Source: Hirsutella rhossiliensis (taxonomy: Eukaryota > Ascomycota > Sordariomycetes > Hypocreales > Ophiocordycipitaceae). Taken from it: a stretch of DNA of 64,000 nt. The translations under genes and the position numbers were made by a program. Positions 1-64,000 of the stretch are shown piece by piece. The notes below the pieces were generated by a model. It worked only from the letters and a program-made list of their open reading frames with translations, had not been told where the DNA came from and did no database searches. Location: positions 4,402,001-4,466,000 of the forward strand of contig NW_025408668.1 in the NCBI RefSeq assembly GCF_020360975.1, written 5' to 3'. Position 1 is the stretch's first letter; each line of letters starts with the position of its first letter.

Positions 1-352
1 CTCGCCGCCGAGACATATACAAAGCCCACCATGGCTTCGGGCCTAGACACGGCTCGTAACGGACGTGTGGCAATCCCCTGGAACAGTCGACATGGCTGAG
101 AAACTCGTCCAGAAAAGGCACCGGGATGCGCAGCACCTTCCCCTGCCGGGGGTACTTGACGTAGTCGTCGTCCATCAGCCTCCGGTCAAACGTGTCCTCG
201 ATCCAGCGGCGACAGCGGTCGAAGAAGTCGGTCCTCAAACAGTGCTTCGCGCCCGTAGGTCCCTTCCAAGTCATGGTGTCCACTGTGTCAGGCGACAACG
301 GCTCCTCCGGGGCCAGGGTAGAATAAGAAGACTCCCTTGGTCGTAGTGCCAT
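1..352 (-). CDS. Unrecognised protein, C terminus beyond the window
   Basis: An ATG at 352-350 opens a frame that stays open to the first base of the window, 117 codons. The visible part contains FDRCRRWIEDTFDRRLMDDD and is rich in aromatic and charged residues, which looks like real coding sequence. The TATA box lies about 320 bp upstream and a donor-like GTGAGC sits near 414-409 on the minus strand, so the true start or a leader intron could lie upstream. I do not recognise the family and see no paralogue in the window. Confidence 0.4.
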   Translation of the reverse strand, partial: MALRPRESSYSTLAPEEPLSPDTVDTMTWKGPTGAKHCLRTDFFDRCRRWIEDTFDRRLMDDDYVKYPRQGKVLRIPVPFLDEFLSHVDCSRGLPHVRYEPCLGPKPWWALYMSRRR

Positions 353-887
353 GCCGGGCAACACCCTTCGTGAATCAAATGCTCCACAGGTTCAGACCTT
401 TCCGTTCCGCTCACCAACTCCGTCTTCGGCACAAAGCACGAACGAGAGAAATGAAGGGCAATACTCTTGCCATGAAAAGAAAAAGGCCCTTCCGGGACTC
501 GGGAGAAGCCGCCTGGTAAACCAACCAGGTCAGTGCAAACAACCTCGCCCACCCTGCTCGTGTCATGTAAGTGATATCGTCTCTGCCCCACTCCGTTTGC
601 CTTTTCGTGCGTTGCCATGGGCAAAATTATCCTCTGGACAGAAGGAAAGTGAATCCGATGTGGGCGAACCCTGGGTTCTTATACCTTCTAGGGTCGGTGG
701 TGTCCGGGTGCTTCCCCGGACGTAAGTGGAGTTGAGAAAAGCTGCGCAATCCAACCATTAACGCGCCATCTTCCGTCCCGTTGATTGGCTCTTAGAACTA
801 AGTCACTTCCCCCCTGTCCGTTGACTTCTAGTACTACACTCAATCACGTGCGTGAAAGGTGTCTAAAGACTGGGCCATGGAGCAGAG
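1..887 (-). repeat. Array unit S1 (partial, minus orientation)
   Basis: Promoter-side part of a unit cut by the window start. From its stem-loop at 887 leftwards come the common promoter region, a TATA box at about 674-688 (minus strand) and an open reading frame from 352 to the edge. The flank of its stem-loop is the rarer type II (GGCCATGGAGCAGAGG). Confidence 0.8.
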
Positions 888-923
888 GCCCCCTATAAAC
901 CAAACTTAAGGATATAGGGGGCC
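887..923 (-). other. Stem-loop H1, candidate replication origin (TATATCC variant)
   Basis: Ten-base-pair stem GGCCCCCTAT/ATAGGGGGCC with the conserved TTAAGTTTGGTTT loop, read on the minus strand. Type II flank. Confidence 0.85.
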
Positions 924-2047
924 CGGGGGTAGAGTCGACATCCGTCTCCCCTACAGTCCACTCCTTCCTGTCGTGTACCATTGACTCCCTCCAGTCGTTC
1001 AAAACTCGCTCCGCTCAGACAGTGCTCCTTCCAGTCGCGGGCCCAACGGGTTTTGTTTGTGTGTGTTTCGTACGTGCCGTGTACTTGATCTGTGTGTTCG
1101 TTCCTCCCGTCACAGTTCCTTTGCTCGTATTCACTCGCTCAGTCAGTCAAGACTCCCGTCTTGTTCTCACCATTCCCTTGCTCATTGCATTCGCTCGGTC
1201 AGCCCTGCCTGGACTGTGCTCTTGTGTGTTGTCCGTCGCGTGCCCGTCGGACACGTGCTCCTCTTGACGGGGTACTACTTTCTTGTGAACGTAGTTGCTC
1301 GATTGAAGACTCGTAAGTGTGACATCCACGCCTCGACCTTCGGCCTCGTCGCACACCCTTCGGGTGTTCTGTCCATAGTGATGAAATGCCCTGCGGGGCT
1401 TAAGCTCAGTGCAGAGAGAGTCAGGGGTTTGACCTTGTAAACGTAGGGGTGAGTACACTATCTTTGTTGATCTACTTGTAAACGATTTTAGAGTCTAGTG
1501 GCCGTGTCGAGTGAAGCCATCGTGACAGCTGTATTAGGCAAGTGGGGTGTCTACCATGCGATCGTCCTCCACCTTTCTATGAAGTCTGTACTCTCTACAA
1601 ATCATGCTTCGCTTTCGCCCACAAAGCCCACTTGAACCCTATTCTACGCCGTCGAGCCTTCGCTTCCGCTTCAACATAACCACATTGCTCCAAATAGAAA
1701 TCATACCTCAACGCAGTCAGTTTTCACCAAGCCGACCGACTTCATCTCGTCTCCCAGTGTCTGTACCCTGGCTCCACCGCGGCGTGTACAAAGAAGCAGA
1801 AAGGCAGAAGGCAGCCTCAAGCTGCTGCATGGAAAGGTGGCCAAACCCCCTGGAATTGTCTCCGGTTCCCGTGGCGGAAGTGACTGTCGTCCCGGTCCTG
1901 TTCCGACAGCTTTCGAAGCATTGTCCACCATGTGTCTGTGAGGGCGGAGCCTTGCCCACCGGGTGGCAGAATGAGATAGGCTTTTACCACCTCGTAAAGA
2001 ACAGAAAAGAGTCCGTGCGCTTTTCAGCGAAATTCCAAGGGACGGTT

Positions 2048-2460
2048 TCACTCCCAAACTGTGTAATACTTCCTCATCAGATCCTCCAGCCGATCTCGTG
2101 ACTGTAGCGCTGCCATCGCTTCTTTCTCCATCAGATAAACCCTGCCGTGTGGCATCACCGGGAAAGCAGAACCCGAGAGTGGACAGACTCGGGACTCAGC
2201 CCTCGTGTCTCTACAGGATGTAAAAACATCCCCCGTTCCGCCTGGAAAGAAGAGCGATGAAGCGACTACCGCGCGCCGTCAACAAGACATAGCCTCTCGT
2301 CGGAGGGTGTACCACATGCACATGTGGAGGGTACAAGATCACGCAAGTGATGGATCACTCCGTTACCACTTCTCGTGGGTAGTTCAACCCGATGCTTGTC
2401 TGCTGCCGAGCCAATGGGTGGAATCACCGTCACTCTAGCTCCAAGATACTTGTTCATCAT
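2048..2460 (-). CDS. Small spliced protein of 103 aa, copy 1
   Basis: Two-exon gene starting MMNKYLGARVTVIPP about 100 bp below its TATA box and ending in ..DLMRKYYTVWE. The predicted intron has donor GTGATC and acceptor TTTCCAG. Compared with the copy in S12, this copy is one C shorter inside the predicted intron; the total span is 413 instead of 414 bases, so the spliced frame is intact in both. That conserved outcome is good evidence for the splice model. No domain recognised; the C-terminal half is charged and probably helical. Confidence 0.55.
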
Positions 2461-2831
2461 ACCTTGTCCGACAAGACGAAGTCAACCTGACCCGGTTGAA
2501 GAAATGGGAAGGAGGAGAGTAGAACCGTCCTAGGTTCCAGTGTCAAAGTGGCGGGCACCCGTGCCCTTCATATACTCCGTTCAACCCGCTTGTACACACA
2601 AACAAGCAAACAAGATCTGTCCGGTTTCTGCACCTTCCCGTATGGAAGGTCATGGAAACTGTACGTAACCTGACCCCGGCATGCAAGTGGACACCAGCTG
2701 CCTCATGTGACGTGGTCCTTTCCCTCCGTCAAGTCCCTCTTACCAACCTAGTTCCTCCCGTCCCGTACGCAACTGCTAACGACTACATGGAAGCTAAAGC
2801 AACCTGTCTATGGGCTGGGCCGTTGTGCCAT

Positions 2832-2866
2832 GGCCCCCTATAAACCAAACTTAAGTAATAGGGGGC
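2832..2866 (-). other. Stem-loop H2, candidate origin (TATTAC)
   Basis: Conserved stem and loop on the minus strand; the loop base carries TATTAC, the 3' part of the CRESS nonanucleotide. Type I flank (GGGCCATGGCACAACGGCCC). Confidence 0.85.
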
Positions 2867-3669
2867 ACATGCAGTGAGTGACTCCGTCACCCACAGTAAC
2901 TTCGCCCTCCAGGCTCGTACCTTTTCCTCCGTCCCGTCGTCCAAGGGCTCCCTCCGGTCGACCAGCTCCTTCCAGTCGCGGGCCCAACGGGTACTGTTTG
3001 TATGTGGGTTGGGTGGAAGTGGTACTTTGGTTGTTCTGGTGTGTGTGTGTCTCGTCCCTTGCTCCCTTCGGTCGCGGTCCTCCGTCCCGTGACTGTGTAG
3101 TTGTTCTTGTGAACGGGGTTGCTCAGTCGAGGATGGTGAACGTGACTCTCCACAGTCGAACCTTCGGCTCGTCTGCACCTCCTTCGGAGGTAATGACCGT
3201 AGTCGTGATGTGCCCTGCGGGGCTGATGCTCAGGGTCGTGTCTCTTGCAATGTGTTATCTTGTAAACGCTTGGGTTTTCTACGTCAAGGGTTGGGTTGCT
3301 TCAAGTAGGTGCTCTTGTAAACATGCTTGTTAACGACTGATGAATGTCTATGTGGAAGTAAAGATCTACGCGAACGTTTTGTGGCGCTCCCCATGGACCA
3401 TGGTATGGTCACTAGTACAGTCACCGTCACTCCTGGAGTCAAGTTTCGCCCGATCAATCATTGATACCTTGTCGTGGAAACGCGCTTGGACAATGAGAGC
3501 CACGAGGTTATTCCTAGATCCCGATTCGGCTAGTGGGCATTCCCCTGCACCTCGACTGATCGCTGGCGAAAGGACAGCCTCCAGCCGCCGGCAAGAACTC
3601 GGCAGACGGAACCGTCCACTGGGCTGTACAAGTCCCGCGCTCTCTTGAACCAGCCTCTGATCACTATCG

Positions 3670-4182
3670 CTACATAATTGTATGACTGGGGAACCATAAA
3701 CCTTCCCGGCCAATGTCACGACACAGTTCCCCCAGCAGTCTTGTGTCACCAAAGACAACCCTGTCGACATCGTCCCTTAGGGGAAGCATCCACGCTCTCG
3801 CGTCCCACTGGAGTGAGTCTTCACAGCATGACAAACACCATGCACGGCTCAAGCCGGGCCTGAGCCAGGGCTCATCCGAATCCGGTAGAAACGCTGATGG
3901 CGAGTCCAAGCCCCCCTTGGAGTCTACCTTGACCAAGACCTCGTACGTGCCCGTTCCACTGCGGACAGCACAGAAACGAAAAGTGCGGCCGACGAGGCAT
4001 GCGCGCAATCGTTGCACCATCTCGGAAGGCATCGCATAATCCTCGACCACCCATCGAAGGAAAAACCAGTGGCGACACCACTGGCGCGCTTTCAAGCGGA
4101 CGCATGCCGCATGATGACAGCAGTAGCACCCCCTAGGTGGCTCTGCAGAAATGGGTAACGTGGCGGGTAGACCGGGCTGCAT
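3670..4182 (-). CDS. Family Q protein, 170 aa
   Basis: Intact frame starting MQPGLPATLPISAEPP. Residues about 20-35 are Cys/His-rich (CYCCHHAACV), followed by WFFLRWVVEDYAMPSEMVQR, a strand and helix that align with FWLRYQPAEQESFDDV of S21 and FWVSYQPAAEESFDDV of S10. The C-terminal CCEDSLQWD...FGDTRLLGELCRDIGRE aligns with the ends of S18 and of the S6 fragment. Two introns or a 5' leader intron are likely, because the TATA box is about 345 bp upstream. The order hydrophobic strand, helix, then FRFCAVRSGTGTYEVLVKV recalls the Rep endonuclease fold without its His pair; this is inference only. Function unknown. Confidence 0.55.
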   Translation of the reverse strand: MQPGLPATLPISAEPPRGCYCCHHAACVRLKARQWCRHWFFLRWVVEDYAMPSEMVQRLRACLVGRTFRFCAVRSGTGTYEVLVKVDSKGGLDSPSAFLPDSDEPWLRPGLSRAWCLSCCEDSLQWDARAWMLPLRDDVDRVVFGDTRLLGELCRDIGREGLWFPSHTIM

Positions 4183-4739
4183 ACCGGCGACTCCGTGCCA
4201 AGTTCACTCCGTTACGTTACGCTCTGCAAGAGCAGAAGGCAAAGGTCCCCAACAAGAGGGATCAGACAGCTTCCGACCTGACTCGAGAAGTCAGCCTTCA
4301 AGGCAGGCATCGTCCCTGCCACGCGCACGCGCTGTTCTCGCAACGAAATACGACATCCGTCTGTGAGTTCGCGGGTGCAAACCCCGTTGCAGTGTCAACA
4401 TGGACTTACTTTCGTAAAAGATATTCTCCGAGTGCTCAAGGCATCAGATCAAGCGGCCCAGCTTGCGTGAGGAAAAAACGCAGGACCGTCTCAGGCTCCA
4501 ATGCAAGAGTGGCGCCCCCCCAGGGCTTTATACCTCTGGTGTCTGAGTAGTGTCCGGGCTCTCAGCCCGTCCAGTGGTGGGGTCATGCAACCCTTTGGGA
4601 AGCTGACATGTGACGCGGCCCCCTCCCTCCGTCGAGTAGCCTCTTAGCACTCAGTCTCTTCCATCCTGTGCAAGACTGCTAGTACATCACTTTCTGCCCT
4701 TGCGGACATTTCGTTCCTAGAGCTGGGCCGTTGTGCCAT

Positions 4740-4775
4740 GGCCCCCTATAAACCAAACTTAAGTAATAGGGGGCC
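4740..4775 (-). other. Stem-loop H3, candidate origin (TATTAC)
   Basis: Conserved stem-loop, minus strand, type I flank. Confidence 0.85.
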
Positions 4776-10716: not shown

Positions 10717-10752
10717 GCCCCCTATATACTTAAGTTTGGTTTATAGGGGGCC
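10717..10752 (+). other. Stem-loop H6, candidate origin (TATATAC variant)
   Basis: Conserved stem-loop, first plus-orientation copy, type I flank. Confidence 0.85.
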
Positions 10753-11223
10753 ATGGCACAACGGCCCAGCCCCAGTCATTAGTCACCTTTCCCGCTTAGG
10801 GATTGAGTGAGGTCCTAAATGGAAGAGACCGGGGGGAGCGACATAGTACTAGCAGCAGCTGATCGGAGAGGAAGATGCGGGCCAATGGATAGCTTCCACG
10901 CCGTGGTTGCATATCCCCCACTCATGACCGGGTGCAGAAGCCCGGACATTCCTTCAACACGGAGGGTATAAAGGCACGGGCTGCCGCCCACTTTCAACGA
11001 GGATGGCTTTCCTCTTCAATCCGTCAGGTCTCTTGCTGGGAAGCACGGGATAAGATCCCCCCTCCTCTCTTTCCGGGAGCAAGCCCAGGAAGGTGGTCCG
11101 TTCTTCCACTACGTGCACGGTGCTCGCTGCACTCGTTCCCTCACTCCCGTTGGGCGGGACTTCGATCGGTAGCCGGGACGCATACGGAGTGCCTTCTTTG
11201 CCACGAACGGAGCCGGGCAAGTG

Positions 11224-12060
11224 ATGGAGCCGGTGGCTGTTTCTTGGTGTCCCGTGAGGTCCTACTTTCGTGCTCTGGCTAGTGATAGCCCACCGGAGGC
11301 GGAGGCGGAGCCGGTGCACCTGGATTCGAGTCGGGAAGACGTGGCTCAACATCTAGCCCGGAGGTTAGTATGCGGTAGCTACTGTCCAGTCTTCACTTGT
11401 GCAGCCTTGAAGGCGCTTTACCCTCACGATCGCAAGATGGTGGTTGACTGGCTGAAGTCGGAGTGGAAGCCTCTCTTGAACTTGCCCGTTGGAGAGGAGT
11501 CCATCGTGGAATGGAACAGGAGCGCGGTCGCCAAGTGGCGTCTGTTTGAGTCTACCTTTCGTGTCGCTTTGGCCTGGACAGGCTTCGATGCAGGCGGACC
11601 GGACACAGAAGTGCGCAGCGGAGCATCACACCTCTTCTCGCTTGAGGCCCTAGTCGCCCACTACAGGCAGTCGGCGGCATTTCACTCCCGCTCCTCGGGC
11701 TGTTCTTCGTGCCGCGGGAAGAATTCGGAGGCGTGTTCTTCCGATCTGGCTGCTTACTTGAAGCTCTCGTTTGCTTCCACGCCCAGTGCGAGCGGCGGGG
11801 AGGTTCCCGACTTTGGTTCTCTCTCCCGGGAGCAGATGGCGGCGTGGTCCCTTGCTACGTCTTTTCTTAGCCTTGCCTTGCTTGGCAGGGCACTCGACAG
11901 CTCTTGCATTGACTCCTGTGGTCATGCTCTCCTTTTGCGTTGGCAGCCTACCGTAGAATGGATCTTTGCAGGTTGGGAGGATCAGGGACTTGCACCCGAC
12001 GTGGAGCCAGATGACGCACCACCACCGTACCCTGGCAGTGGTTGGTTTGGAAATGTATGA
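11224..12060 (+). CDS. Family P protein, 278 aa
   Basis: Longest uninterrupted member of family P. It starts MEPVAVSWCPVRSYFRAL at an ATG about 250 bp below the TATA box; a 5' leader intron is possible. Residues about 50-75 (CPVFTCAALKAL...VVDWLKSEW) correspond to the VVVYFL...CWKQLEAS block of S13. The C-terminal block SLSREQMAAWSLATSFLSLALLGRALDSS aligns with MNDEQVDALWCAHSYFTLAILARHVHSV of S28 and FSRDQRESLALWFSLQTLEMVARVVGS of S24. The last 20 residues are acidic and proline-rich. Function unknown; the copy number suggests a component that each segment set needs or that diversifies by duplication. Confidence 0.65.
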   Translation: MEPVAVSWCPVRSYFRALASDSPPEAEAEPVHLDSSREDVAQHLARRLVCGSYCPVFTCAALKALYPHDRKMVVDWLKSEWKPLLNLPVGEESIVEWNRSAVAKWRLFESTFRVALAWTGFDAGGPDTEVRSGASHLFSLEALVAHYRQSAAFHSRSSGCSSCRGKNSEACSSDLAAYLKLSFASTPSASGGEVPDFGSLSREQMAAWSLATSFLSLALLGRALDSSCIDSCGHALLLRWQPTVEWIFAGWEDQGLAPDVEPDDAPPPYPGSGWFGNV

Positions 12061-12649
12061 CCTCTTTGCTTAGCTGCAGACTTCAACACTCCACCGTAGA
12101 ATAGAATAGTGACGACTTGCCATCCGTCTGAGTAAATTGACACATGGCCTTGCACTGTTTCTCTACTCACACCGACTTGGCTCTATCCACACCATCACAA
12201 AGCATCGTCGAACCTAAAAGCGTTTACAAGATCTCTAAGGCGTTTACAAGTACCCTCAGATCGTTTACAAGAGACTGGCTATATCATCACCCCCGGAGGG
12301 CCCATTCATGACTATGGAAATTACCCCCGAAGGGGGTGCAGTGAGGCCGAAGGTCGAACTGTGAGAAGCCACGTTGACGAGACTTCAATTCGGTAGACAC
12401 GTTTACAAGGGAGTAGATATGCGACAAGGAGGAGCAAGCATCCGACAGGGTGCGCGACGGACAAAGAATAATGTGTAAGCAAGATGAACAGCTTTCTGAA
12501 AGTCACAGGCACGCATACAAGCAATACAAACAGTACCTCCCCAACACAAATGGGCCACGACGAGGGACGAGTCGACCCCTTGACCGGAGGGAAAAGGTAC
12601 CGCAGCGGGACGCGAGGATTGTATGTGACGGGAGGTCACTCTGTGCTTC

Positions 12650-12684
12650 GGCCCCCTATTACTTAAGTTTGGTTTATAGGGGGC
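12650..12684 (+). other. Stem-loop H7, candidate origin (TATTAC)
   Basis: Conserved stem-loop, type II flank (GGGCCTCTGCTCCATGGCCC). Confidence 0.85.
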
Positions 12685-13116
12685 CTCTGCTCCATGGCCC
12701 AACGTACTAGGCAGGTTACTACAAAGTAGTTTCACTGCGGTCCATAGGCGAAGACGACAGGGGGGAGACAAGCAGTACTAAGAACCAATCAGACGGATGG
12801 ATAGATGGTACGCCACAAGGTGTGGGTTGCGCAGCTTCCACACACCATCAGGCAGGTGGACGGGTTGGAGCCCCGGACGCGGGTGGAGACCACACACACC
12901 CTGGGAAGGTATAAGAGGGGGACCTCGCCCACACGCAGGACACTGGATTGTTCTGCTTTCCACCTACACACTCAACCCAGCGGTTGACATTCGCTTGTCT
13001 AAGCACACGGAGGAAATCGTACTCATCACCAGGCAGACCTGGGCGAGGACGGAAAAGATAACGCGGAGGGGGCCGGAGAACAGGATAGTTCACTGGAGAC
13101 AGTGGAGACGGCGTCG

Positions 13117-13767
13117 ATGGGGAGGGCTTGGCCCGTCACCGATGTAGTGTGGGTAGACACCACTGGGTCTCCGTCTAAGTATGCCGAGCCGGATTGCGTC
13201 GCCTGCGCCTGCTACTTCTGCGGACGGGAGTTCCGCAACTGTGTGCGACCGAGGGGGGAGTTCTTCTCTCTATCTCTTCTTTGTCCGATTGTAGAGGACA
13301 TGACGATACCCGGGCCGAGTGACCCGGCAGTCTTGCTTTCTTTTACCTCTCTTGGTGCCATGATGGCATCCTGGTTGTCTCTCTCCGACACGGTGGAGGG
13401 GCTGGTGCACGCCTGGTTTTCATGGAACTGCCATGCAGGATCATGCGGGTCCTTGTTTGGACACACGACAGATGCGGAGTGGAATGCCTCGGCTCTGGAC
13501 ACTTCGGACCAGGGAGACTGTTGTCTCCTTTTGCTCTTTCAGTCCTCTGGGAGGTTCCGGGGTCTCTGGAGAGAGCCCGAGCTGGCGACACAGCTGCAGT
13601 CGCTTCTCGGCGGTCTTTCGGAGTTCGACGCGGACGGGATGCTAGGCACAGCAGATGCCGATGTTTTGTGTGAATTGATTCCGCACACGCACACCACGGC
13701 TTGGCTGGAGACAAGAAGAGATGTGTTGGAGTTTTGCACATATCAGGTGGTGCATCGTTCTGGGTAG
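13117..13767 (+). CDS. Family P protein, 216 aa
   Basis: Intact frame starting MGRAWPVTDVVWVD. A Cys-rich patch CVACACYFCGREFRNC lies near residues 25-40. The block LLSFTSLGAMMASWLSLSDT followed by VEGLVHAWFSWNC aligns with AAFLFSHLSPLVGPMTYREV followed by QLAVEHYLGWC of S13, which places it in family P. The frame upstream to 13102 is open but begins with GTG, so I start at the first ATG, about 200 bp below TATA. No catalytic motif seen. Confidence 0.6.
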   Translation: MGRAWPVTDVVWVDTTGSPSKYAEPDCVACACYFCGREFRNCVRPRGEFFSLSLLCPIVEDMTIPGPSDPAVLLSFTSLGAMMASWLSLSDTVEGLVHAWFSWNCHAGSCGSLFGHTTDAEWNASALDTSDQGDCCLLLLFQSSGRFRGLWREPELATQLQSLLGGLSEFDADGMLGTADADVLCELIPHTHTTAWLETRRDVLEFCTYQVVHRSG

Positions 13768-14562
13768 TTTGCACAGTTGATGGGTGATCGATCGGGCGGA
13801 GAGCACCCCTCTTTCCTAAAGTAGATGTGACGATGGATTCATTTCACGTTAGACAGTGGACTGTAGACACGAATAGGTAGTGACACGCGGTGTATGACGC
13901 AAGGATTATGCACTTCACTAGACACGTAGAACTACGTAGACAGACTTGATACCCAAGACGTTTACAAGAGGAAATCAGCAACGACGGGAGAAACAAAAGA
14001 GAACAAGCGGACACGACGGATGCACAACACTACACGATGCGTTTACAAGGGACTGGTCGAGTCCTCACGAGATACTATACTTAAATACGTTTACAAGGTA
14101 ACCTGTTGCCCCGGCTACCACCCTAAACTTCCAATCCCCTTCCGAGATACGAACAGAACACCCGAAGGGTGTGCAGACAGGCCGTAGGACTGGCTGTGGA
14201 GAGTCACCTTGACCACTCCTCGATCGACTCACGACGTTTACAAGGAAGTCGGTACAGCACAGGAGGAGCGAGTGTCCCGTTAGGGTGCGCGACGGACAAT
14301 CAACACAATGCAGCAACTCACCGACAGACAAAGTACACAGACGGTTTGAGTGGCATAGACACACAACACAACCTCACCCAGCCACTCAGTGGACAGTCTG
14401 CTCAAGTACTTACCCACACACGACAACAACCAATCACACACTGGGCCCGCGACGGGACGGAGCATGTCTGAGCGGAGCGAGTCTTTGCACGCCTGGAGGG
14501 AGTCAAAGGTACCGCAGCTGGAGGCGAGGATTGTGAGAGGGACGGAGTCACTCGGACACCCA

Positions 14563-14598
14563 GGCCCCCTATTACTTAAGTTTGGTTTATAGGGGGCC
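14563..14598 (+). other. Stem-loop H8, candidate origin (TATTAC)
   Basis: Conserved stem-loop, type I flank. Confidence 0.85.
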
Positions 14599-16450: not shown

Positions 16451-16484
16451 GCCCCCTATAAACCAAACTTAAGTAATAGGGGGC
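16450..16484 (-). other. Stem-loop H9, candidate origin (TATTAC)
   Basis: Conserved stem-loop, minus strand, type I flank. Confidence 0.85.
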
Positions 16485-45073: not shown

Positions 45074-45109
45074 TGCCCCCTATTACTTAAGTTTGGTTTA
45101 TAGGGGGCC
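45074..45109 (+). other. Stem-loop H24, candidate origin (TATTAC)
   Basis: Conserved stem-loop, type I flank. Confidence 0.85.
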
Positions 45110-50218: not shown

Positions 50219-50614
50219 GTGCGAGTGTCTGTTTGCTGCTGCGCAAACCTTTGCAATGACTTTCGCCGGACTCCAGGAGCCAGACTCCGTGTTCTCTGAC
50301 GACAGAAGATCAACCGGCCTCGGTTGGATGAATAAAGAAGAAAACAGAACCGGGCATGGTTCCGTGTGTGTTGGAGGGGGGGCCTGCCCCCTCTTATATT
50401 CCTCTCGGTTGCTGATCCCCAGCAGGGGTGTGTTCTGCCTGAACCCATCCAGTTGTGGAGTCGTGGAAGCTGTGCAACCCGACCAGTGGCGCGCCATCTT
50501 CCGTCCCGTTGATTGGCTCTTAGAACTAAGTCACTTCCCCCCTGTCCGTTGACTTCTAGTACTACACTCAATCACGTGCGTGAAAGGTGTCTAAAGACTG
50601 GGCCATGGAGCAGA

Positions 50615-50649
50615 GGCCCCCTATAAACCAAACTGGTTTATAGGGGGCC
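50615..50649. other. Palindromic stem-loop H27 at an inverted junction
   Basis: Minus-orientation arm GGCCCCCTATAAACCAAACT joins a plus-orientation arm GGTTTATAGGGGGCC, giving an almost perfect palindrome without the TTAAG loop. Left flank is type II, right flank type I, so two different origins were fused. Confidence 0.85.
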
Positions 50650-51183
50650 ATGGCACAACGGCCCAGCCCATAGGAACGGAAAGTCCCGCAAGGGGCAGAA
50701 GTGATGTACATAGCAGTATTGAACAGGCGGGGAAATACTTGGTCATAAGAACCAATCAGAGGGACGAAGGATGGTACGTCACAGAGTGTAGCTTGCCTTG
50801 GCTTGCATACATCACATGCTGTGCGGGTCGGAACCCGGACACGAGTGGGAACACACTTCCGCAGAAGTACATAAAGAGGGCGTGCCGCCCACTTCCTTCC
50901 GACCTCAGACGGTCCGTTCTCTCCCATCTCGAGCAGGCTGCTCTTTGGCTTGATGCCCATACTGCCTTTTCCGTCAAGGAGCACGAAGACTCTTCTCTAC
51001 GTTGCCCATCGTTTGGTTCGTGGGCAGCCAACCTCCCACCCCGGAGGACGGGACTATGCTAAAGGGAGTCGAGTAGACCTCCCGAGGTTCGCTTGTGCGT
51101 CACGGCAAATACCGCTGCTGGGACAGTTGTCTTCCCGGTCAAGGAACGCACTGTGTCGGACACTTCTTCCTCGTCAGATCACG

Positions 51184-52351: not shown

Positions 52352-52387
52352 GGCCCCCTATTACTTAAGTTTGGTTTATAGGGGGCC
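52352..52387 (+). other. Stem-loop H28, candidate origin (TATTAC)
   Basis: Conserved stem-loop, type I flank. Confidence 0.85.
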
Positions 52388-52827
52388 ATGGCACAACGGC
52401 CCAGCCCATAGAGCAGGATGAACGCACGTGATTCACTGCAGTAGTAGACCGGAGCGACAGGGGAGGGAGGACACCCCGAGCAGAGCGACCATCAGGAGGA
52501 CTCGCACCTGTTTTTCTTTTTTGGAATTCTCAGTCAGCATCACGGAACTGCACCATTCTTTCCCAGCGGAAAGAGAGACAATCCAGGGTAGGTCTAGCCC
52601 TCTTCCCAGGGAACGGAAGGGACGAATAATAGTCCGGAGGAACCTGCTTCTGTAAGCAGATAGTCACGTGACCGCGCGTCGTTCCTAGGGTGACACGCAT
52701 GTTTTGGGAGATCCTGCGGGGCTGGCTTCACTCATGGTGGTCATCGCCATTACTGTCGTCTCCTACTGATCAAGCAGATCTAGTTAGCACCGGCAGTGCT
52801 TTTTCTTTCACATCTCTTCAATCAGCG

Positions 52828-53452
52828 ATGGAGGCAGCACCAGCCCTTCCACAGCCCTCTTTTCCGCGGGTGGCGGACAGTTTATCGGCTTTGTCCGAGG
52901 AGTTCTCGCGGTGTCAGAACCTGCCGGCGGTCGATGGTGGTCTTCGACTCACACAAGCGCTTGAAGCGATACGAAATGACTTGCGGTCTGAGATGCGCAT
53001 AATGCGGAATGAGATGCAGACAATCAGCAGGAAGCTGGACGGCTTGGACCACAAAGTAGATGGTTTGGATCGGAAGGTAACGGTCTCGTAAGTCGAGCCG
53101 TGAGTTTTCTTCTCAGCATCGGTTGCTGACTTCTTCCCCGTTCGGTAGGAACCGGAACGCAGTGGTGCGAGCTCGGAATGGCACGGTTGTCCGCGGAGAC
53201 ATGGACCTGGTGCCCTGCACAGCGTTCTCACGGGCGAAGTGATCGATGATTTTCCCGACAACGTGGATCAACTGGAGCGACTGCATGGTGAGTTGACGTC
53301 CCCGGTCTTCAGGTGCTATACTCATCGTTTTCATGATAGCGCGAGACGTAGATCAGTTGCTGCGCCACCTAGGGGAACCTGTGACAGGCTCGGCAGCGGA
53401 GAAGAAGAGGAATCTGAAGTTTGCGACAGGGCTAGTGACACGGGAGCTGTGA
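52828..53452 (+). pseudogene. Three-exon coiled-coil/SAP-like gene, promoterless and frameshifted copy
   Basis: Exons 52828-53087, 53149-53287 and 53340-53452, introns with GTAAGT/GGTAG and GTGAGT/GATAG. Exon 1 (PSFPRVADSLSALSEEFSRC, ISRKLDGLDHKVDGLDRKV) and exon 3 (VDQLLRHLGEPVTGSAAEKK) are open and close to S11 and S20. Exon 2 is 139 instead of 140 bases; the shift lies near 53209-53216, before TGEVIDDFPDNVDQLERLH. With no TATA box left in its unit, it is probably silent. Confidence 0.65.
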
Positions 53453-54113
53453 TGCTTCTTCTTTGTCTTTTCTTGTATGCCCGAGGCTTCTTTCCGATAG
53501 CGTTGGCGTTTAGGAACTTTAACCGGATGGGGACTTGACGATCCCCTCACTTGGTGACCAAACAACGTTTATAAGTAGAGCCGAAAAGATAGCATGCCTG
53601 CAACCGTTTGCAAGAGGATATTTTGCAAGAGACATTACTCTGTTACAAGGGAGTAAACAATACTGTAGCCTTTTAATAACCGCTTGACCATAGATTCTTT
53701 TCTTTTCTTAAGCGTTTACAAGAACACTACGCTGCAAGGGCTACAGACAATCGTTTCCAATCCCACTCATGACTACGGAATCAACCCCCGAAAGTGCGAC
53801 CAGGACGCAGTACTGGGCGTGGAAACCGCGCTGCAAGAGACTCAGATCCAGTCAACACGTTTACAAGCACATCCACGTTCACGAAGCACACAACACTGAG
53901 TGACGAACCACCCACAACACAACCTCACCCAGTCACTCAATCACACCCGCACACGTGAACACCATACAACCCGCACCAGCCAATCACACACTGGGCCCAC
54001 GACTGGAAGGAGTGTCGACGACCGGAGGGAGGTTTTGAGCGAGTGGAACGAGGTCACCAGTACACGACAGGAAGGAGTGGACACAAAGAGACGGGAGGTC
54101 GCTTTGACTGCCA

Positions 54114-54149
54114 GGCCCCCTATTACTTAAGTTTGGTTTATAGGGGGCC
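54114..54149 (+). other. Stem-loop H29, candidate origin (TATTAC)
   Basis: Conserved stem-loop, type I flank. Confidence 0.85.
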
Positions 54150-56041: not shown

Positions 56042-56076
56042 GCCCCCTATTACTTAAGTTTGGTTTATAGGGGGCC
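56041..56076 (+). other. Stem-loop H30, candidate origin (TATTAC)
   Basis: Conserved stem-loop of the capsid segment, type II flank. Confidence 0.85.
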
Positions 56077-56423
56077 TCTGCTCCATGGCCCAACGTACTA
56101 GAGCAGTGTGTTACTACAAAGTAGATACACTGCAGTTTTTAGCACGAATTGACAAGCAGGAAAGAAGTGGGTCGTAAGAGCCAATGGAGGACTGAACATC
56201 GCGCGTCAATTGCTCAGTTTGCTGCACAGCTTACTTGACAATATCCACTTATGGACGGGCTGAGAGCCCGGACACTTTCGCCGCTACGGAGTATTTAAAG
56301 AGGGCTGGGTCCCTCGCCGACTGATCTCGGGGATCTCTCTTTGTCATACCCTGGTCCGCCGCCAAGTCAGAGATTGACTTCTGAACACCTGTTGCTGGGT
56401 AGCTTTGTCTGGAGACCAAGAGA

Positions 56424-57368
56424 ATGGCTTATTATCGACGAAAGTCGGGCTCCCGCTACTCAGGTGGTTCGTATCGTCGGAGGGGAGGACGACGTGGATA
56501 CTCCCGCTACGGGAAGAAGCGCTTCTCGAGAAAGAAGAAGACGGCATCGGCTTCCTCGCGCATATCGATGCGCAAGATGCGGGAGCAGATCCAGCGCATG
56601 TCGCTGGCACAGCACGGTGAGCCACGTAAGTATGCGTTGAGGGGGGCCCCCGACGACCTTCGGGTCCGTCCCTTCGGAGGCAACGCGCAGAGGTATTACT
56701 TTGCCGCACCCGTGTCGGAGATCTTGCAGAAGGCCGCGTTGACCTTGGGCAATCGAACTTCGGTGTATGTGACGGGCGTCGCTCTCGAATTTGATCTTAT
56801 TCACGCTTGTCCGGTGGACTTTTTCGCGCTTTGTCTTCCCATTGCAGGTGCTGGGGGGGCCCAGTTGATTCCTCTGGATGAGAAGAGGAGAGTTCCCTTG
56901 GCAGCCAGCCCGAAGGGTGAGCGCAGTGTGTCTCCAGTCCTTCGTGACAGGACGGATGAATTGGTGGATCTTATTTCACGAGCGGCTTTCTCCGACAACG
57001 CGCGAGATGGCACCCTCTTCAACGCGCCCTGCACAGCGGAACCTCCTGAAGGGCCAGCTGACGCTCAATGGGAAGAGCAAGGCTGCTCATACCGGCAGGG
57101 CAAGTGTTTCTCTGTCACGCAAGGAGACAACAGCGCTGGATCGATTGCCAGTCATGTTCGAGACTCGATTCGTGTCTGGTGGGACATAAGTAAGGTGGTT
57201 CGGGTCTTCCAAGACCAGCTCAAGCCTCTTGATGGCCATTATTCCATCCTCTGTGGAGTGCGGCCGCAAGTCGAGCCCAGCAAAGTCCTGAAGACGGAGG
57301 ACGACGGGTTGCCCGAGGACATTGGATGCTTGCAGAGTGTGCGCGTGACGGTTCATGTTAGACAGTAG
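56424..57368 (+). CDS. cap: Capsid-like protein with arginine-rich N terminus, 314 aa
   Basis: Uninterrupted frame. Residues 1-45 are extremely basic and aromatic/glycine-rich (YRRKSGSRYSGGSYRRRGG, RRGYSRYGKKRFSRKKK), the DNA-binding and nuclear-targeting arm typical of circovirus, genomovirus and related CRESS capsids. The remaining 270 residues alternate short hydrophobic strands (RYYFAAPVSEILQ, TSVYVTGVALEFDLIH, DSIRVWWDISKVVRVFQDQL), as expected for a jelly-roll, and it ends SVRVTVHVRQ. Its length is normal for such capsids. ATG lies about 125 bp below TATA; a short leader intron is possible. It is the only major gene in the window with no frame damage beside families P copies S7, S8, S13. 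Identification rests on composition and context, not on a conserved motif. Confidence 0.75.
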   Translation: MAYYRRKSGSRYSGGSYRRRGGRRGYSRYGKKRFSRKKKTASASSRISMRKMREQIQRMSLAQHGEPRKYALRGAPDDLRVRPFGGNAQRYYFAAPVSEILQKAALTLGNRTSVYVTGVALEFDLIHACPVDFFALCLPIAGAGGAQLIPLDEKRRVPLAASPKGERSVSPVLRDRTDELVDLISRAAFSDNARDGTLFNAPCTAEPPEGPADAQWEEQGCSYRQGKCFSVTQGDNSAGSIASHVRDSIRVWWDISKVVRVFQDQLKPLDGHYSILCGVRPQVEPSKVLKTEDDGLPEDIGCLQSVRVTVHVRQ

Positions 57369-57979
57369 TCAAGTCAGATTTTCCCTTCTCGGTGGTCGCG
57401 ATGGCTTCCTCCTTTTTGTAGTTGCATACGGAAACAAATGACGCACTATCTATCTCCGCAAGGCATTTCCAATGTTCTGTGACTGTCACCCTGCTCCTCA
57501 CTCATCGGGTTCGACGTTAAAGCGTTTACAAGAATTCTCCCAAGCGTTTACAAGACAATCTACTTCAAGCGCTACCAACCTAAATCTCCATCCCTTCCGA
57601 GATACGAACACAACCCCCGAAGGGGGTGCAGACAGGCCGTAGGACTGGCTGTGAAGAGTGGCGCTCACCATCTTCGATTGAGGGTGCCGTTTACAAGAAC
57701 ACCCGGCGACAGGAGGAGCAAGTGTCTGGAAGGCACGCGACGGACGGGAAACAGAATACAGTCCCAGCAGGACTGACCGCGCGAGGCACGAGCAAGGGAA
57801 TAAGTGAGACGGGCGAACCAAGAAAATCAAATGTACCAGGCACGTACATTGTCAATACAAACAGTACACGTGGGCCGCGACTGGAAGGAGCTGACGACTG
57901 GAAGGAGCTCTTTGACGGAGGAAAAGGTACCGCAGCGGGACGCGAGGATTGTATGTGACGGGAGGTCACTCTGTGCTTC

Positions 57980-58014
57980 GGCCCCCTATTACTTAAGTTT
58001 GGTTTATAGGGGGC
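57980..58014 (+). other. Stem-loop H31, candidate origin (TATTAC)
   Basis: Conserved stem-loop, type II flank. Confidence 0.85.
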
Positions 58015-58186
58015 CTCTGCTCCATGGCCCAGTCTTTAGACACCTTTCACGCACGTGATTGAGTGTGGTCCTAAGCAGAAACGACGGGGGGGAGTGCATG
58101 CAGTCATAGCGGCGCGTCCGACAGGGGGGAGGCCGCCGGTTCTCATTGGGTAGCTTCCAACGCAGTGGTTGCGTACACACCCACTA

Positions 58187-58298
58187 CCCGTGCCACGCCC
58201 CACTTTATTTGGAATTCGCAAGCTCCCACCTCCTAAAGTTGGTGCTCACCACCAGTATCCCCACACCACCGGAATACCCAGAATTTCGACTCCCCGAC
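58187..58298 (+). repeat. Left terminal inverted repeat
   Basis: 112 bp, identical as far as I can read to the reverse complement of 60001-60112. Identity of both ends suggests a recent insertion. Confidence 0.93.
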
Positions 58299-58347
58299 TT
58301 CAGCATCCCTATATCTTAACCAATTCACGATCTCGTCGATAGCCGAA

Positions 58348-59750
58348 ATGGAAGCACGTGTACAAAACGCTCTTCGATATATTGAAAATTTTCCGGTGCT
58401 AAAGTCGCAACCGTAGCGCGAGAATTCGGTGTAACACGTGATCGATTGCGATACCGTCTTCAAGGCCGACCTCCTAAAACTGGCCAGCGAGCTAGAAATA
58501 CGAGGCTTTCCGAACCAGAAGAGAAGGCCCTATGTCGCTATATCGATCGTTTGGATAATATAAACCTTGCGGTACGCGTCGAGTTCGTTACTGACGCGGC
58601 AAACTGTATCTTGCGCGAGCGGTCTAGCCAGCGCGACGCTCCTACCGTGGGGCCAAACTGGACTTCTCGCTTCTTAAAGCGTCACGGCTACTTCAAAAGC
58701 GCCAAAAGGCTTCAAGCAGAGCGCCAAGTCTCCGAGAATCTTACACGAGTTAACCAGTATTTCCAGCATCTTCGGCAGGTTATCCAAGACAATGGTATAC
58801 CTCCTGAGGATATCTGGAATATGGACGAGACTGGTTTTCGCATCGGGGTTGGAAAAGACCAGCTGATTGTGACAAAACGGAGGAGAGCTCATTATTTTGG
58901 CATTCCTGAGAATAGGGAATCCGCTACTGCGATCGAAGCTATCTCGGCGAATGGGGAGGTTGTTCCGGCTTTTTTGATACTCGCTGGCCAGATGCACATG
59001 GCTTCATGGTATCAAATACCTGAGCTAGATCCTGACACAGTTATTCGACCCACGCCTACTGGTTACTCAAACGACGTGATTAGTCTGGAGTGGCTCCAGC
59101 ATTTTGACAAGCACTCGGAAAAAAGCTCAAGAAGCTCGAAGCGACTTCTAATTCTTGATGGTCATGGCTCTCACCATACCAGGCAGTTCATTGAATACTG
59201 CGACAACCACAATATTATTCCCTTCGGCATGCCGCCTAATCTCACGCATGCACTTCAGCCTTTGGACGTTGTCGTTTTCCAGCCCCTAAAGCACTATCAC
59301 GCCAAGGCTTTAGATGTCATGGTTCGAGATGGCCTCGTCAACATAACCAAGCTTGAGTTTCTCTCCTGCATTCAACAAGTACGATTGCATGCTTTCAAGG
59401 AGAGTACTATACGCTCCGCATTTCGCAAGACAGGAATCTTCCCATTCAATCCACAAGTAGTACTTCAATGTTTGGAAGCTCGTCAAGCCACGACACCCAC
59501 ACCTCCTCCCAATTCAGGACCACACTCCTCACCTTTCGAGACACCATTGACTCTACGACAAATAAACAAGGTAGCGGACAAATTAGATCTCGTCCTTGAA
59601 GACGATAAAAGCCTGGATCCCGACTTTTCTCACGATCTCAGTCGATTTATTCGAGGATCGCTATCTCTGGCGACTGAGCTCGTGCAGACTAAAGGGACTT
59701 GGGACGAACCAAAATGGCGGAGCGGATCCAAAAACAACGTAAGGCTATGA
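58348..59750 (+). CDS. pogo/Fot1-family transposase (frame-broken at both ends)
   Basis: Cut-and-paste transposase. A psq-type helix-turn-helix starts at ATG 58348 (MEARVQNALRYIENF) and continues one frame lower in VAREFGVTRDRLRYRLQGRP. Then come the Tc5-type DNA-binding domain (WTSRFLKRHGYFKSAKRLQA) and the DDE domain with NMDETGFRIGVG, LLILDGHGSH and LTHALQPLDVVVFQPLKHYH, all three acidic residues present. The main frame is open to 59750. A homologous-looking tail (MAERIQKQRKAMKNIQLQSG) follows in a third frame to about 59851. Both changes are -1 shifts near homopolymers (CC at about 58391, AAAGGG at about 59692), like those in the array genes. Acidic triad and target site match the fungal Fot1 group. 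Confidence 0.9.
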
Positions 59751-60000
59751 AGAATATACAGTTACAATCAGGAGGAGTATTGTCAGTGGCCCAAGGACGG
59801 GAAATGGTGCAACAAAGGGAGATGATCAGATTGCTAAAGCAAGGAAGGTAGTAGAAGACGCGGAGAAAAGGCGCATAACGCACGCAAGCGATGGTTTGAG
59901 GAAGCAGCAAAAAGGCACGCCAATGGAGGGTTCAGGAAGGTTAGAACGAGTGGAAGTACGCGATTCTGAGCGTGGTACGCGGTGGTTGAAGCGATTCTAG

Positions 60001-60112
60001 GTCGGGGAGTCGAAATTCTGGGTATTCCGGTGGTGTGGGGATACTGGTGGTGAGCACCAACTTTAGGAGGTGGGAGCTTGCGAATTCCAAATAAAGTGGG
60101 GCGTGGCACGGG
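60001..60112 (-). repeat. Right terminal inverted repeat
   Basis: 112 bp, mirror of 58187-58298, followed by the TA duplication at 60113-60114. Confidence 0.93.
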
Positions 60113-61801
60113 TACCGGACGGGCGCAGAGCCCGGACAGATCGACAACGGAGGGTATAAAGGCACGGGCTGCCGCCCACACACAGAACGGGGACTGTTCT
60201 TCTTTCACTTCACTCTTCATTCCTGAAGAACGGCCGCAAGGACGTGCGAAGCAAACAGCACAGGACGGGCATGTCTGCTCTCACACCGCATGCACGCTGT
60301 AGTGCACATACACACAGACGCGACCGGAGGGAGCAACGGACAAAAGGACAAGAGGACGATCACGCACAAGTCGGGCGGGAGGACAACCGAATGAGAAAGA
60401 TAAGAGTGAGTGAGGAGACGAACTGACTGACAGAAACCAGGGGGGAACAGAGAGGGGCGGTAGCCCCTTGGCTAGAAGAAGAACGCGGCAGTTCCTTCAC
60501 TCCTTCTCTTTTCCAACAAAGAGAACAAAGCAGGACAAGAGGTCCACGGCGCTCGGCTTCCTTTGTTCCCGGAGGGACTCTCTGCAGTTGTCGGTGTCGA
60601 CCACTTTCTGGTGAAGGCACGGAGAGCACAGGTTGGACAGAGTGACGGGAGGAACTCGATCTGTTCAATGTGCACGCGCTCCCTCTCCGCCCATGCTGGG
60701 CTGCGCTCCCGCTTGCTTCCCCCTATTGAGGAAAAGGGAAATGCACTCCGCGCTCTGGGCGCTTCGTCAAGTCCCGTACCCCGGCCAACACGGACAATAT
60801 CGGGTAGGTCCCAGCAGGTTGGTGACGGAAAGGAACCGGGAAAACACGTTGCCGAGAGGCACAGGACAGACGGGCTCCGGACAAAGACTATTCCCGGCCA
60901 GGGATACGCGACATGCAACCAACGGGAAGCGGTGGGACACACACCAAGGACTCAGCTCCACTTGCCCAATGCAGCACCCATGATGCCCTCACGTAGCACG
61001 TAGACGGGAGATGGCTATCTCTCCAGATGAACAAGGGCACGACTCCGACTGCCACAGACTGTGAATTCTGCTCCGACAAGAGGAACGGTGGGACAGGCGG
61101 CGGAAGCAAGGCGAGGCACACGTGAGAAGTGCGACTGGGGGAGCAAAAGGACAAAGCGGCGCCCATTTCCAACAGACAGAGTGAAGACGTTCACAAGGAA
61201 CCAACACGAGACGGGCTGCATAGACCGTGAACAAGAGTACACATTGCCTTGGCTACCGATAGATCCCACAGATGTCGTAGATGAATCCGTTTACAAGGAC
61301 CCTAAAGCGTTTACAAATATTCCAAACGTTCACAAGTTGTAGTCATTGCCCCGGCTACCACTCCCCTCCTCTCCCCCTTCCATGACTACGGAATCCACCC
61401 CGCAGGGGTGCAGACATGCCGAAGGTATGGCTGCGAAGAGCAGGGACCGAGCGACGCGAGGGAACCGTCATACTCACCCTCCTCGACTGAGCATCTCGTT
61501 TACAAGGTAGTCCACTGCACAAGAGGAGCAAGAGTCCGTAAGGGCTCGCGACGGGCATCACACAACCTCACTGAGTGGCGCTCAACGCTCAATCACAACA
61601 CACCCTACTCCACGCCACTCAGTCCCGTTGTCTACACTACCCACTCACCCACGTCCAGCCCGCACCAGCCAATCACACACTGGGCCCACGACTGGAAGGA
61701 GTGTCGACGACCGGAGGGAGTTTTGAACGACAGGATGGAGGTCAAAGGTACGCGACTGGAAGGAGTGTGCAGACGGTGACGGGAAGTCACTGTCACCCCC
61801 G

Positions 61802-61836
61802 GGCCCCCTATCACTTAAGTTTGGTTTATAGGGGGC
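61802..61836 (+). other. Stem-loop H32, candidate origin (TATCAC variant)
   Basis: Conserved stem-loop, type I flank; one base of the TATTAC core changed. Confidence 0.85.
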
Positions 61837-62383: not shown

Positions 62384-62678
62384 GAGACGGCTCTCCTTCG
62401 ATTTCACTACCTAGGCTAGGTGGTCATTGATTGTCTTCGTGCACGAGAGCATCGCCCACTGGGATCATTGCCCGGGGAGGGCTTCATCCGTCCACATGGG
62501 GTACAAAGACGGGACTCTTCCTTGTCTTATGCAGTGACTGCCTCGTGATCATACACACACTGTGTGTTTCTCCTACAACGGCGTGTTTGGAGTTTTATTT
62601 CTTTGCTTGGTGCATCCAGTTGGAAGTGGCCACTTTCTGAACTGACTTGGAATCCTCAATCCGAGGAGGATGACTTAA

Positions 62679-62972
62679 TCATCGCCCGACGAGGGTGAAT
62701 GGTTTGGACCACCCGTTGAGCATTCTAATGCGGTAGCCACGCGACTCCTGCTGTTGGACCGGCTGCTCTCCTTCACGTATACAGGGATGGAGTCTCTTTC
62801 TCATGTGATGTGGCATCTTGCACGGTGCCAGACTAAATGCAGACGGAGTGGTAAGTCGATGGATGGCGACTCTTGCGTAGACACCCCACTTTCCCTTCTG
62901 GGACATGACGATGGCTTCCTTGGTAGTGAATCTAGCCATCGCTCAATACATATCATATCCGTCACATGTTGA
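62679..62972 (+). CDS. Possible C-terminal part of the S33 protein
   Basis: Frame opening after a TAA at 62678: SSPDEGEWFGPPVEHSNAVA, TRLLLLDRLLSFTYTGMESL, SHVMWHLARCQTKCRRSGK. The middle resembles, loosely, the C-terminal helices of family P. It runs over the 3' element (GACATGACGATGGCTTCC), as S21 does. No ATG at its start, so it is an exon or a broken frame. Confidence 0.35.
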   Translation, partial: SSPDEGEWFGPPVEHSNAVATRLLLLDRLLSFTYTGMESLSHVMWHLARCQTKCRRSGKSMDGDSCVDTPLSLLGHDDGFLGSESSHRSIHIISVTC

Positions 62973-63714
62973 ACCAGTTACATCGATGCCTGACTGTGCC
63001 TGTAACCACTCACGCTTGGCTTGATGACGGTCCACAAGGCCTCATACTCTCTACACACCGCCAGGCTATGCTTGACTCGACAAAGAGCCTAGACATGAAC
63101 GGGAGGGTAATGCTTTTCAGACGTGATCTTCATAAGCTGGCTATGACTATGGATAGAGGTGAGACTATCATACAAGGAGATGGCCTGATATGCTCCACAC
63201 GGTAAATGACGACGGCTTCACCTAAGCGTTTACAAGAACACTTCATCCGTTTACAAGGGACAGACTTGAAGATCACCTCCGGAGGACTCCTCTATGACTA
63301 TGAACATTACACCCGCAGGGTGTGCAGGCGAGCCGAAGGTTCGACTGTGGAGAGCCGCACTGACGAATCCTCAATCGAGTAAACACGTTCACAAGAAAGT
63401 CCACAAGACGAGAGGCTTGTCCACGCGAACGTAGCGAGCAGGGGGACAATGGGAGGAGACGACCATCACAGACCGACACGGGAGGAGCAAGTGTCCCCTT
63501 GGGGGCAAGCGACGGGCAGAGAACACAGCACACACGCCAAACAGAACAACCGGAGTCACTCCACTACCCAGAACACAGACGAACAGTACACGTTGGGCCC
63601 GCGACGGGACGGAGCATGTCTGACCGGAGCGAGTCTTTGCACGACTGGAGGGAGTCAAAGGGACTTCGACTGGAGGGCGAAGACAGGAGAGTGAGGGAGT
63701 CACTCGGACACCCA

Positions 63715-63750
63715 GGCCCCCTATTACTTAAGTTTGGTTTATAGGGGGCC
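63715..63750 (+). other. Stem-loop H33, candidate origin (TATTAC)
   Basis: Conserved stem-loop, type I flank. Confidence 0.85.
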
Positions 63751-64000
63751 ATGGCACAACGGCCCAGCCCATAGACAGCATGAACGCACGTGATTGACTG
63801 TGGTCCTAGCAGTGTTGGACTGGAGGGGAGATACTGAGTCATAAGAGGCAATCAGACGGGAGGGATGAGCCGCGTTTTGATTGGGTAGCTTCCAACGCAG
63901 TGGTTGCGTACACATCCACTTTTGGACGGGTTGGAGGAACCCGGACACTTACGGTAGACCAGAGGGATATATAGAGGGTGGTGCCTCCCCTCTATGCACA
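63715..64000 (+). repeat. Array unit S34 (partial, plus orientation)
   Basis: Promoter region only: GGCAATCAGACGGG near 63847, palindrome near 63924-63945, TATA (GGATATATAGAG) at 63964-63975. The window ends before any gene, so the array continues to the right. Confidence 0.8.

Follow-up and report, generated by a model that had tools for sequence, protein, structure and literature searches.

We analysed a 64,000-nt stretch (hereafter the window; C2:4402001-4466000) of the 81.8-Mb, 40-contig genome of Hirsutella rhossiliensis, an ascomycete that parasitises nematodes. The window lies within an array of about 366 kb on the 8.44-Mb contig C2. Units of this array are about 1.9 kb long and have in common a stem-loop, a CGTTTACAAG repeat with one predominant direction and a region of about 700 nt (the common region). 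We read the array as probably a chromosomal concatemer, recent in origin, of a mycovirus with circular Rep-encoding single-stranded DNA (CRESS-DNA) that would be extremely multipartite, its genome consisting of dozens of mostly one-gene circles of about 1.9 kb. This multipartite reading is the best inference from the integrated units, which fall into 65 types with one origin and common region; that all 65 types belong to one virus is not proven and is the main uncertainty, the alternative being a small set of agents that use the same replication origin. A literature search that left out most subscription journals and bioRxiv preprints found no published description of the array.

Stem-loops, units and unit types

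A search of the window for the 24-nt core of the stem-loop (at most 5 mismatches) returned 32 loops, compared with 0 in 20 mononucleotide shuffles, and a half loop lay besides these at 18354. The results agreed with an earlier sequence-only reading of the window, which had proposed 33 near-identical stem-loops dividing about 33 units. The loops followed one another as 5 minus, 3 plus, 1 minus, 14 plus, 3 minus and 6 plus, and were spaced 1.67-2.12 kb apart except at two double gaps (16463-20301 and 58003-61825). Three stretches were folded in all: the stem-loop at 12650-12685 formed a DNA hairpin of -10.8 kcal/mol (z -2.7), the variant loop at 39507-39567 folded weakly (z -0.95), and the third, a junction, is described below.

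1-64000, no strand: middle part of the array, C2:4374755-4740853 (stem-loop maps)
12650-12685, plus strand: stem-loop and putative Rep origin, one of the 32; GGCCCCCTAT stem with a 16-nt loop
888, 2833, 4741, 6679, 8613, 16451, 46757, 48689 and 50616, minus strand: starts of other stem-loop cores (core match)
10728, 14574, 20289, 22235, 24169, 26078, 27976, 29884, 31788, 33716, 35649, 37584, 39517, 41416, 43372, 45085, 52363, 54125, 56052, 57991, 61813 and 63726, plus strand: starts of other stem-loop cores (core match)

Across the genome, the stem-loop occurred at 181 places with up to 2 mismatches, whereas the reversed-pattern control gave 0; among the places listed (100 of the 181), all were on C2 and C12. 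The stem-loop map of C2 had an isolated first loop at 4374755, dense loops from 4382240 and the last loop at 4740853, which confirms the proposal that the array continues beyond both window edges, and a second, small array mapped to C12:2381617-2393844. Taken over the whole genome, the string of about 180 pieces of about 1.9 kb looks like separate DNA circles of one family of tiny viruses. About 130 kb of the array (C2 at about 4488000-4551000, 4615000-4617000 and 4642000-4707000) was covered by pattern and protein hits alone.

We obtained 97 complete units, 89 of them between same-strand loops and 8 of them composites at strand switches. The 89 same-strand units had a mean length of 1922 nt (sd 55), as uniform as had been claimed, although uniform length is only suggestive with regard to separate encapsidation. 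All 97 units formed 71 clusters at 70, 80 or 90% identity over 70% of their length and 68 clusters at 90% identity over 30%; of 16 clusters in the initial list, one (C2_4452616 with C2_4629118) consisted of such composites, as did a single member in each of two others. With the composites removed and a length coverage of 50%, the 89 units fell into 65 types, 49 of which were found once, 12 twice, 2 three times, 1 four times and 1 six times. The Chao1 estimate of about 155 types is rough, the sampling being non-random.

Bodies of the same type were nearly substitution-free, while different types did not align over most of their length. Of 38 same-strand pairs of copies belonging to the same type, 21 differed by 0-9 substitutions and 17 by 14-105; in the latter, most changes fell near the ends of the unit, in places with a different common region. 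All 38 pairs had 5-19 gap openings. The Rep unit likewise occurred with two different last stretches of about 350 nt and an almost identical body. In the window, 25 same-strand units could be typed and represented 24 types; the statement that some 20 other units differ in content needs the correction that some units repeat (U01 and U10); five intervals at strand switches (U05, U08, U09, U23 and U26) were composites.

The common sequences were distributed across nearly all types. The core loop was present in all 65 types and GTTTACAAG in 64, with 137 copies in unit orientation and 1 reversed, which supports the iterons that had been described. 50-mers shared between different types were concentrated around the loop, between about 500 nt upstream and 200 nt downstream of it. 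Reuse of exact 40-nt flanks across types linked 49 of the 65 into one component. Its members included the units for Rep, the second Rep, capsid, Rad52 and the zinc ribbon; when 100-nt flanks were required, no component exceeded 3 types. A promoter in every unit had also been proposed, and here the outcome was mixed: 33 of the 46 TATAWA sites in the 65 types lay 200-299 nt after the stem-loop, while the stricter GGTATAWA was present in only 12 of the 65 types. The units carry the stem-loop and iterons expected of a CRESS-DNA virus; nicking of the array loops by Rep and binding of their iterons are putative. An Rfam scan gave no match at the gathering threshold, and the stem-loop was not found in IMG/VR.

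Host satellite DNA, which consists of near-identical monomers, was rejected as a candidate, given 65 types among 89 units. A tandem array with hairpins could still suggest an ordinary satellite or a rolling-circle (Helitron-like) transposon, a reading that we regard as extremely unlikely: the units differ in content, a geminivirus-type Rep and a capsid candidate are present, and 0 of 54 scanned open reading frames (ORFs) match a Helitron family in Pfam. The same Rep, capsid candidate and differing units speak against stem-loops that belong to a satellite without Rep, part of what the sequence-only reading had named as its own refutation. Captured host DNA as the source of unit bodies was also dropped: two ORF-poor bodies (2 of the 65 types) searched genome-wide had matches in the C2 and C12 arrays only (29 and 8 places).

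Genes carried by the units

Within the window, Rep and the capsid candidate each occurred once, on separate units, as had been reported, and the Rep frame was broken. This Rep matched Gemini_AL1_M in Pfam above the cut-off (9.5e-8), the copy in locus L025 matched Gemini_AL1 at 4.2e-5 (23.9 bits against a cut-off of 24), and Rep matched endonuclease domains of Rep proteins in PDB (best 6e-6). Thirty related proteins were found in the database, the host's own among them, and the motif-like stretches of Rep, which we take to be motifs I-III and Walker A, aligned with these relatives. Judged by these matches, the protein is an HUH/SF3 Rep as in the CRESS-DNA viruses (Cressdnaviricota), with no fetched array copy open throughout. 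A search with PF02407 gave no match and carries little weight, its control also having none. Further Rep places at C2:4509574 and C2:4649234 are known from protein hits alone, and Rep relics with stops occurred on C5, C1 and at C2:1462743. At the last of these (C2:1462743-1464314) the relic stands beside an open family A frame of 230 aa, as a lone older insertion.

The capsid candidate is an open frame of 314 aa with 8 homologues of 253-330 aa, 7 of them from 'lgn' on contigs of 1.1-1.6 kb; it had no match in the 'phages' database. Contigs of 1.1-2.1 kb ('lgn', 'ena' and Aphanocladium album; P0003, P0006, P0011, P0013-P0016, P0031 and P0033-P0038) carry relatives of Rep or the capsid candidate and are candidate free single-gene segments. 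These short contigs fit separate segments, though they could be fragments. Relatives of array proteins were also present on a second H. rhossiliensis contig (12,525,496 bp) and on contigs of H. minnesotensis 3608 (9-23 kb).

An open 247-aa Rad52 copy was found at C2:4593740 (PF04098, 1.7e-37), and it matched solved RAD52. The array Rad52 shared 57-62% identity with genes on C4 and C9 but only 38% with the likely host RAD52 on C7, and so belongs to a separate lineage and is not a fresh capture of the C7 gene. The genes on C4 (C4:208973) and C9 (C9:3056816), in loci L034 and L035, are open Rad52-like frames of 306 and 287 aa. They were nearer to the array Rad52 than to the host RAD52 (33-35%), and are possibly domesticated viral genes.

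Other units carried genes of several families. Unit C2_4473378 encodes a 3CxxC zinc-ribbon protein (6.6e-22; L007:3434-4072), family A was found in 12 units of 9 types, and family B in 8 units of 6 types. We compared 46 gene-family pairs and report dN/dS for 45, one having been left out for low identity (at most 24%); 25 pairs gave values of 0.20-0.76, and the seven with at least 41% protein identity, which form the trustworthy set, gave 0.20-0.48. As judged from these ratios, gene families that span several unit types are under purifying selection. A Pfam scan of 54 ORFs of at least 140 aa gave hits to Rep domains, Rad52 and the zinc ribbon; the one other match, to Clr2 (0.009), was weak. The longest ORF lay on the unit strand in 50 of the 65 types, and ORFs exceeding shuffles were found in 35 types on the unit strand and 9 on the other at p <= 0.05, and in 20 and 2 types, respectively, at p <= 0.01.

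900-2845, minus strand: unit U01, type T4; reversed near-identical copy of U10 (20301-22247), 99.5% over 1950 nt with 0 substitutions and 9 gap openings
2845-4753, minus strand: unit U02, family A gene 3670-4182 (170 aa; family comparison, dN/dS)
10740-12673, plus strand: unit U06, 278-aa ORF 11224-12060, no Pfam domain
12673-14586, plus strand: unit U07, family B gene 13117-13767 (216 aa; family comparison, dN/dS)
22247-24181, plus strand: unit U11, family B gene 22882-23484 (200 aa; family comparison)
27988-29896, plus strand: unit U14, Rad52-like gene, ORFs 28396-29133 and 28662-29201, frame broken in this copy (PF04098, 5e-17)
31800-33728, plus strand: unit U16, short family A ORF (117 aa; family comparison)
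37596-39529, plus strand: unit U19, family D gene 38375-38896 (31% identity over 106 aa to L020:6203-7078)
39529-41428, plus strand: unit U20, the Rep unit, ORFs 39789-40154 and 40154-40951, frame broken in this copy (Gemini_AL1_M)
43384-45097, plus strand: unit U22, family C gene 43957-44634 (family comparison)
52375-54137, plus strand: unit U27, family E gene 52699-53091 (family comparison)
56064-58003, plus strand: unit U29, capsid candidate 56424-57368 (314 aa) with an Arg/Lys-rich N terminus; its 8 homologues include Hirsutella minnesotensis HIM_12209 (alignment)

Several results weigh against the preferred reading of the array. The capsid candidate had no sequence match in Pfam, nor in PDB at E <= 1, and the array holds two capsid places that are 84% alike. 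At least two Rep lineages are present, T0 and one 55% alike at C2:4561276. All six fetched Rep copies were frame-broken, with longest ORFs of 265-312 aa compared with 353-462 aa in the long relatives, and a 280-aa partial Rep (P0005), of the same length as in two array copies, was recorded on two contigs, which could be the same frame break in two assemblies. IMG/VR held no relatives of Rep or the capsid candidate, family A had no homologue in the protein database at 1e-3, 20 of the 45 dN/dS pairs were saturated at synonymous sites, and 30 of the 65 types had no unit-strand ORF beyond shuffle expectation at p 0.05.

The Rep lineages and capsid places allow several co-integrated viruses or satellites, and each virus may have far fewer than 65 segment types. 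In one alternative, several co-infecting CRESS viruses and satellites with few segments each, none highly multipartite, would have integrated at one hot spot. The coconut foliar decay virus (CFDV) complex offers a parallel, most of its 12 circles being alphasatellites (PMC5890292). We consider such a mixture possible but on balance unlikely: every type has the core loop and all but one the iteron, the units for both Rep lineages, capsid, Rad52 and zinc ribbon fall within the one component of 49 cassette-sharing types, and the CFDV satellites encode Rep, whereas only a few units do so here. The very highly multipartite nature first proposed for the window is kept as the best inference, from 65 types in 89 units of which most are flank-linked, while membership of all types in one virus stays unproven, given the Rep lineages and the two capsid variants.

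The broken frames were taken as assembled, without repair. Copies of the same type differed by 318 indels and 111 substitutions in 67,432 compared columns (4.7 and 1.6 per kb, respectively), with 205 of the 318 indels in homopolymers of at least 3. This count excludes blocks of 100 columns that held over 3 substitutions, and pairs within a type are not independent. Host transposon copies were likewise variable in indels, 18 of them at 99-100% identity spanning 1392-1407 nt against a 1401-nt query. The homopolymer indels and the same habit in the host transposon make indel errors in unpolished repeats the likelier cause of the frame breaks, with real breaks also possible given P0005. Annotated proteins in unpolished repeat regions of this assembly may be broken.

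Joining, insertion and age of the array

The order of units was close to random. Adjacent same-strand pairs were distinct in 65 of 66 cases, one order was found twice among the 15 neighbour pairs in which both types were multicopy, and one adjacent pair consisted of two Rep units in tandem. Near-random order points to the joining of circles from a pool and not to duplication of an ordered array. The examined part of the array contained 14 strand switches, of which 2 were resolved base by base; spacings at the other 12 were 174-2908 nt, which implies truncated units. The two resolved head-to-head joins are consistent with molecules opened at the loop, as by Rep, the exact nick being putative.

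16463-20301, no strand: two units head-to-head, joint at 18344-18354; the right unit begins in the loop and the left lacks about its first 30 nt
50600-50665, no strand: palindromic head-to-head junction, both units beginning in the loop (50616); hairpin -24.8 kcal/mol, z -7.1
58003-61825, plus strand: one unit (about 1.89 kb without the insert) split by a 1.93-kb host DDE_1 transposon
58185-60114: the host DDE_1 transposon, arms 58185-58298 and 60001-60114, a perfect 114-nt inverted repeat including the flanking TA on both sides

The DDE_1 transposon had at least 20 further matches at 99-100% identity elsewhere in the genome, with 40 scored out of 93 candidates, and one of these matches lay within the array at C2:4397495. 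At the right edge of the array (C2:4743375-4744388, L029), a copy of the Rad52 unit bore the mark of repeat-induced point mutation (RIP): C>T or G>A accounted for 315 of its 375 changes, and 92% of CpA and 79% of CpG sites were altered. It adjoined AT-rich DNA (25-32% GC). The window bore no such mark (indices 0.88 and 1.02), so either the array is younger than RIP at that edge or it escaped RIP. That episomal viral DNA was wrongly joined into the chromosome during assembly is very unlikely; the excess of indels over substitutions between copies, a sign of poor repeat polishing, fits such an error, but the host transposon with its flanking TA inside a unit, its second copy in the array, the mutated edge unit grading into AT-rich DNA and the second array on C12 all speak against it.

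Older relics were also present. A 6.4-kb stretch duplicated at 99.4% on C10 and C13 included a 78% relative of unit C2_4623314 (76% at the protein level, dN/dS 0.49), which, with the other relics, indicates that at least one segment type persisted over time. The two loci (L031 and L032; C10:2217501-2226500 and C13:1629001-1637000) carry truncated units of older origin, with genes of families A and B, in which no stem-loop was found.

In the mechanism that we propose, Rep from one segment would nick the loop of every segment in trans during rolling-circle replication, and nicked segments would be joined to others at the loop by Rep cut-and-join or by annealing of common regions, possibly assisted by the Rad52-like protein. 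Chains of segments would then have been inserted into the chromosome, partly inverted and truncated. Uniform length may follow from a packaging limit of the capsid, and some segments (families A and B) may have arisen by duplication and divergence, with swapped common regions.

The array might instead be a domesticated, polydnavirus-like provirus, an inherited genome whose unit circles are released by Rep between one origin and the next; this reading overlaps the one preferred here. Rep could release units that lie in origin-to-origin tandem, as happens when related plant viruses are inoculated as tandem copies; the low substitution divergence and the open capsid frame fit as well, and relic units with diverged Rad52 copies elsewhere suggest a long association. 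Against this stand the 14 strand switches with truncated or composite units, the near-random order, the host transposons inside and the broken Rep frames, and we think it quite improbable. Similarly doubtful is the stronger form, in which the array would be a virus genome that is still alive and inherited. That virus would have about 100 or more circles, mostly of one gene (65 types were seen in 89 units, with Chao1 at about 155), which its chromosomal copy would keep together and which Rep would launch from one origin after another. If true, this would be the CRESS-DNA counterpart of a polydnavirus, a virus that stores its segments in the host chromosome and so escapes the cost of multipartite transmission. 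The recent concatemer remains our preferred reading, and the endogenous concatemer of the sequence-only reading is well supported by the chromosomal contig, host transposons, near-random order, two head-to-head loop junctions, and a Rep and capsid candidate among many units.

Comparison with known systems

The closest designs were found in two mycoviruses. BcssDV1, from an ascomycete, has four one-gene circular segments of 1669-1707 nt that encode Rep, capsid protein and two hypothetical proteins, with long and short common regions that include a stem-loop (PMC10731770). The array is similar in its uniform-size, one-gene units with Rep, capsid candidate, hypothetical proteins and common regions with a stem-loop, but it has 65 unit types against four segments, its loop sequence differs, and Rep of BcssDV1 lies on the opposite strand of its segment. 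BcssDV1 is a free virus obtained from particles, whereas the array is chromosomal, and the array has a Rad52 gene, which the available text does not mention for BcssDV1. Fusarium graminearum gemytripvirus 1 (FgGMTV1/FgGV1), as described in PMC10731770, also has a fungal host and a circle each for Rep, capsid and one further protein, which makes three segments compared with dozens of unit types in the array.

Larger sets of circles are found elsewhere. The CFDV complex has 12 circles, eleven of one size, and resembles the array in its many circles of mostly one size; nine of them are Rep-encoding alphasatellites and the genome is possibly tripartite, unlike the array (PMC5890292). The CFDV circles are mostly satellites, which warns that many co-occurring circles can be satellites. 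Nanoviruses share separate circles, a common stem-loop and Rep acting in trans, but have six to eight segments of about 1 kb and infect plants; membership of Nanoviridae was rejected for 1.92-kb units in a fungal genome. Proviral loci of polydnaviruses hold segments in tandem in the host chromosome, like the array. Polydnaviruses are double-stranded DNA viruses of wasps and are not known to have a CRESS Rep.

Multipartite viruses pose an open question, as delivery of the full set becomes harder with more segments. The published range, in the sources available, is 3-4 segments for CRESS mycoviruses and 6-8 for nanoviruses; if our reading is true, a fungal CRESS virus with tens of mostly one-gene segments, with gene families distributed among them and a Rad52-type protein of its own, would move the segment limit several-fold to tenfold. 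The array thereby offers a system for direct tests of segment number, common-region recombination and chromosomal storage. In the comparison made here, it appears similar in design to the 3-4-segment mycoviruses FgGMTV1 and BcssDV1, and differs in its number of segment types, its Rad52 gene and its form as a chromosomal concatemer.

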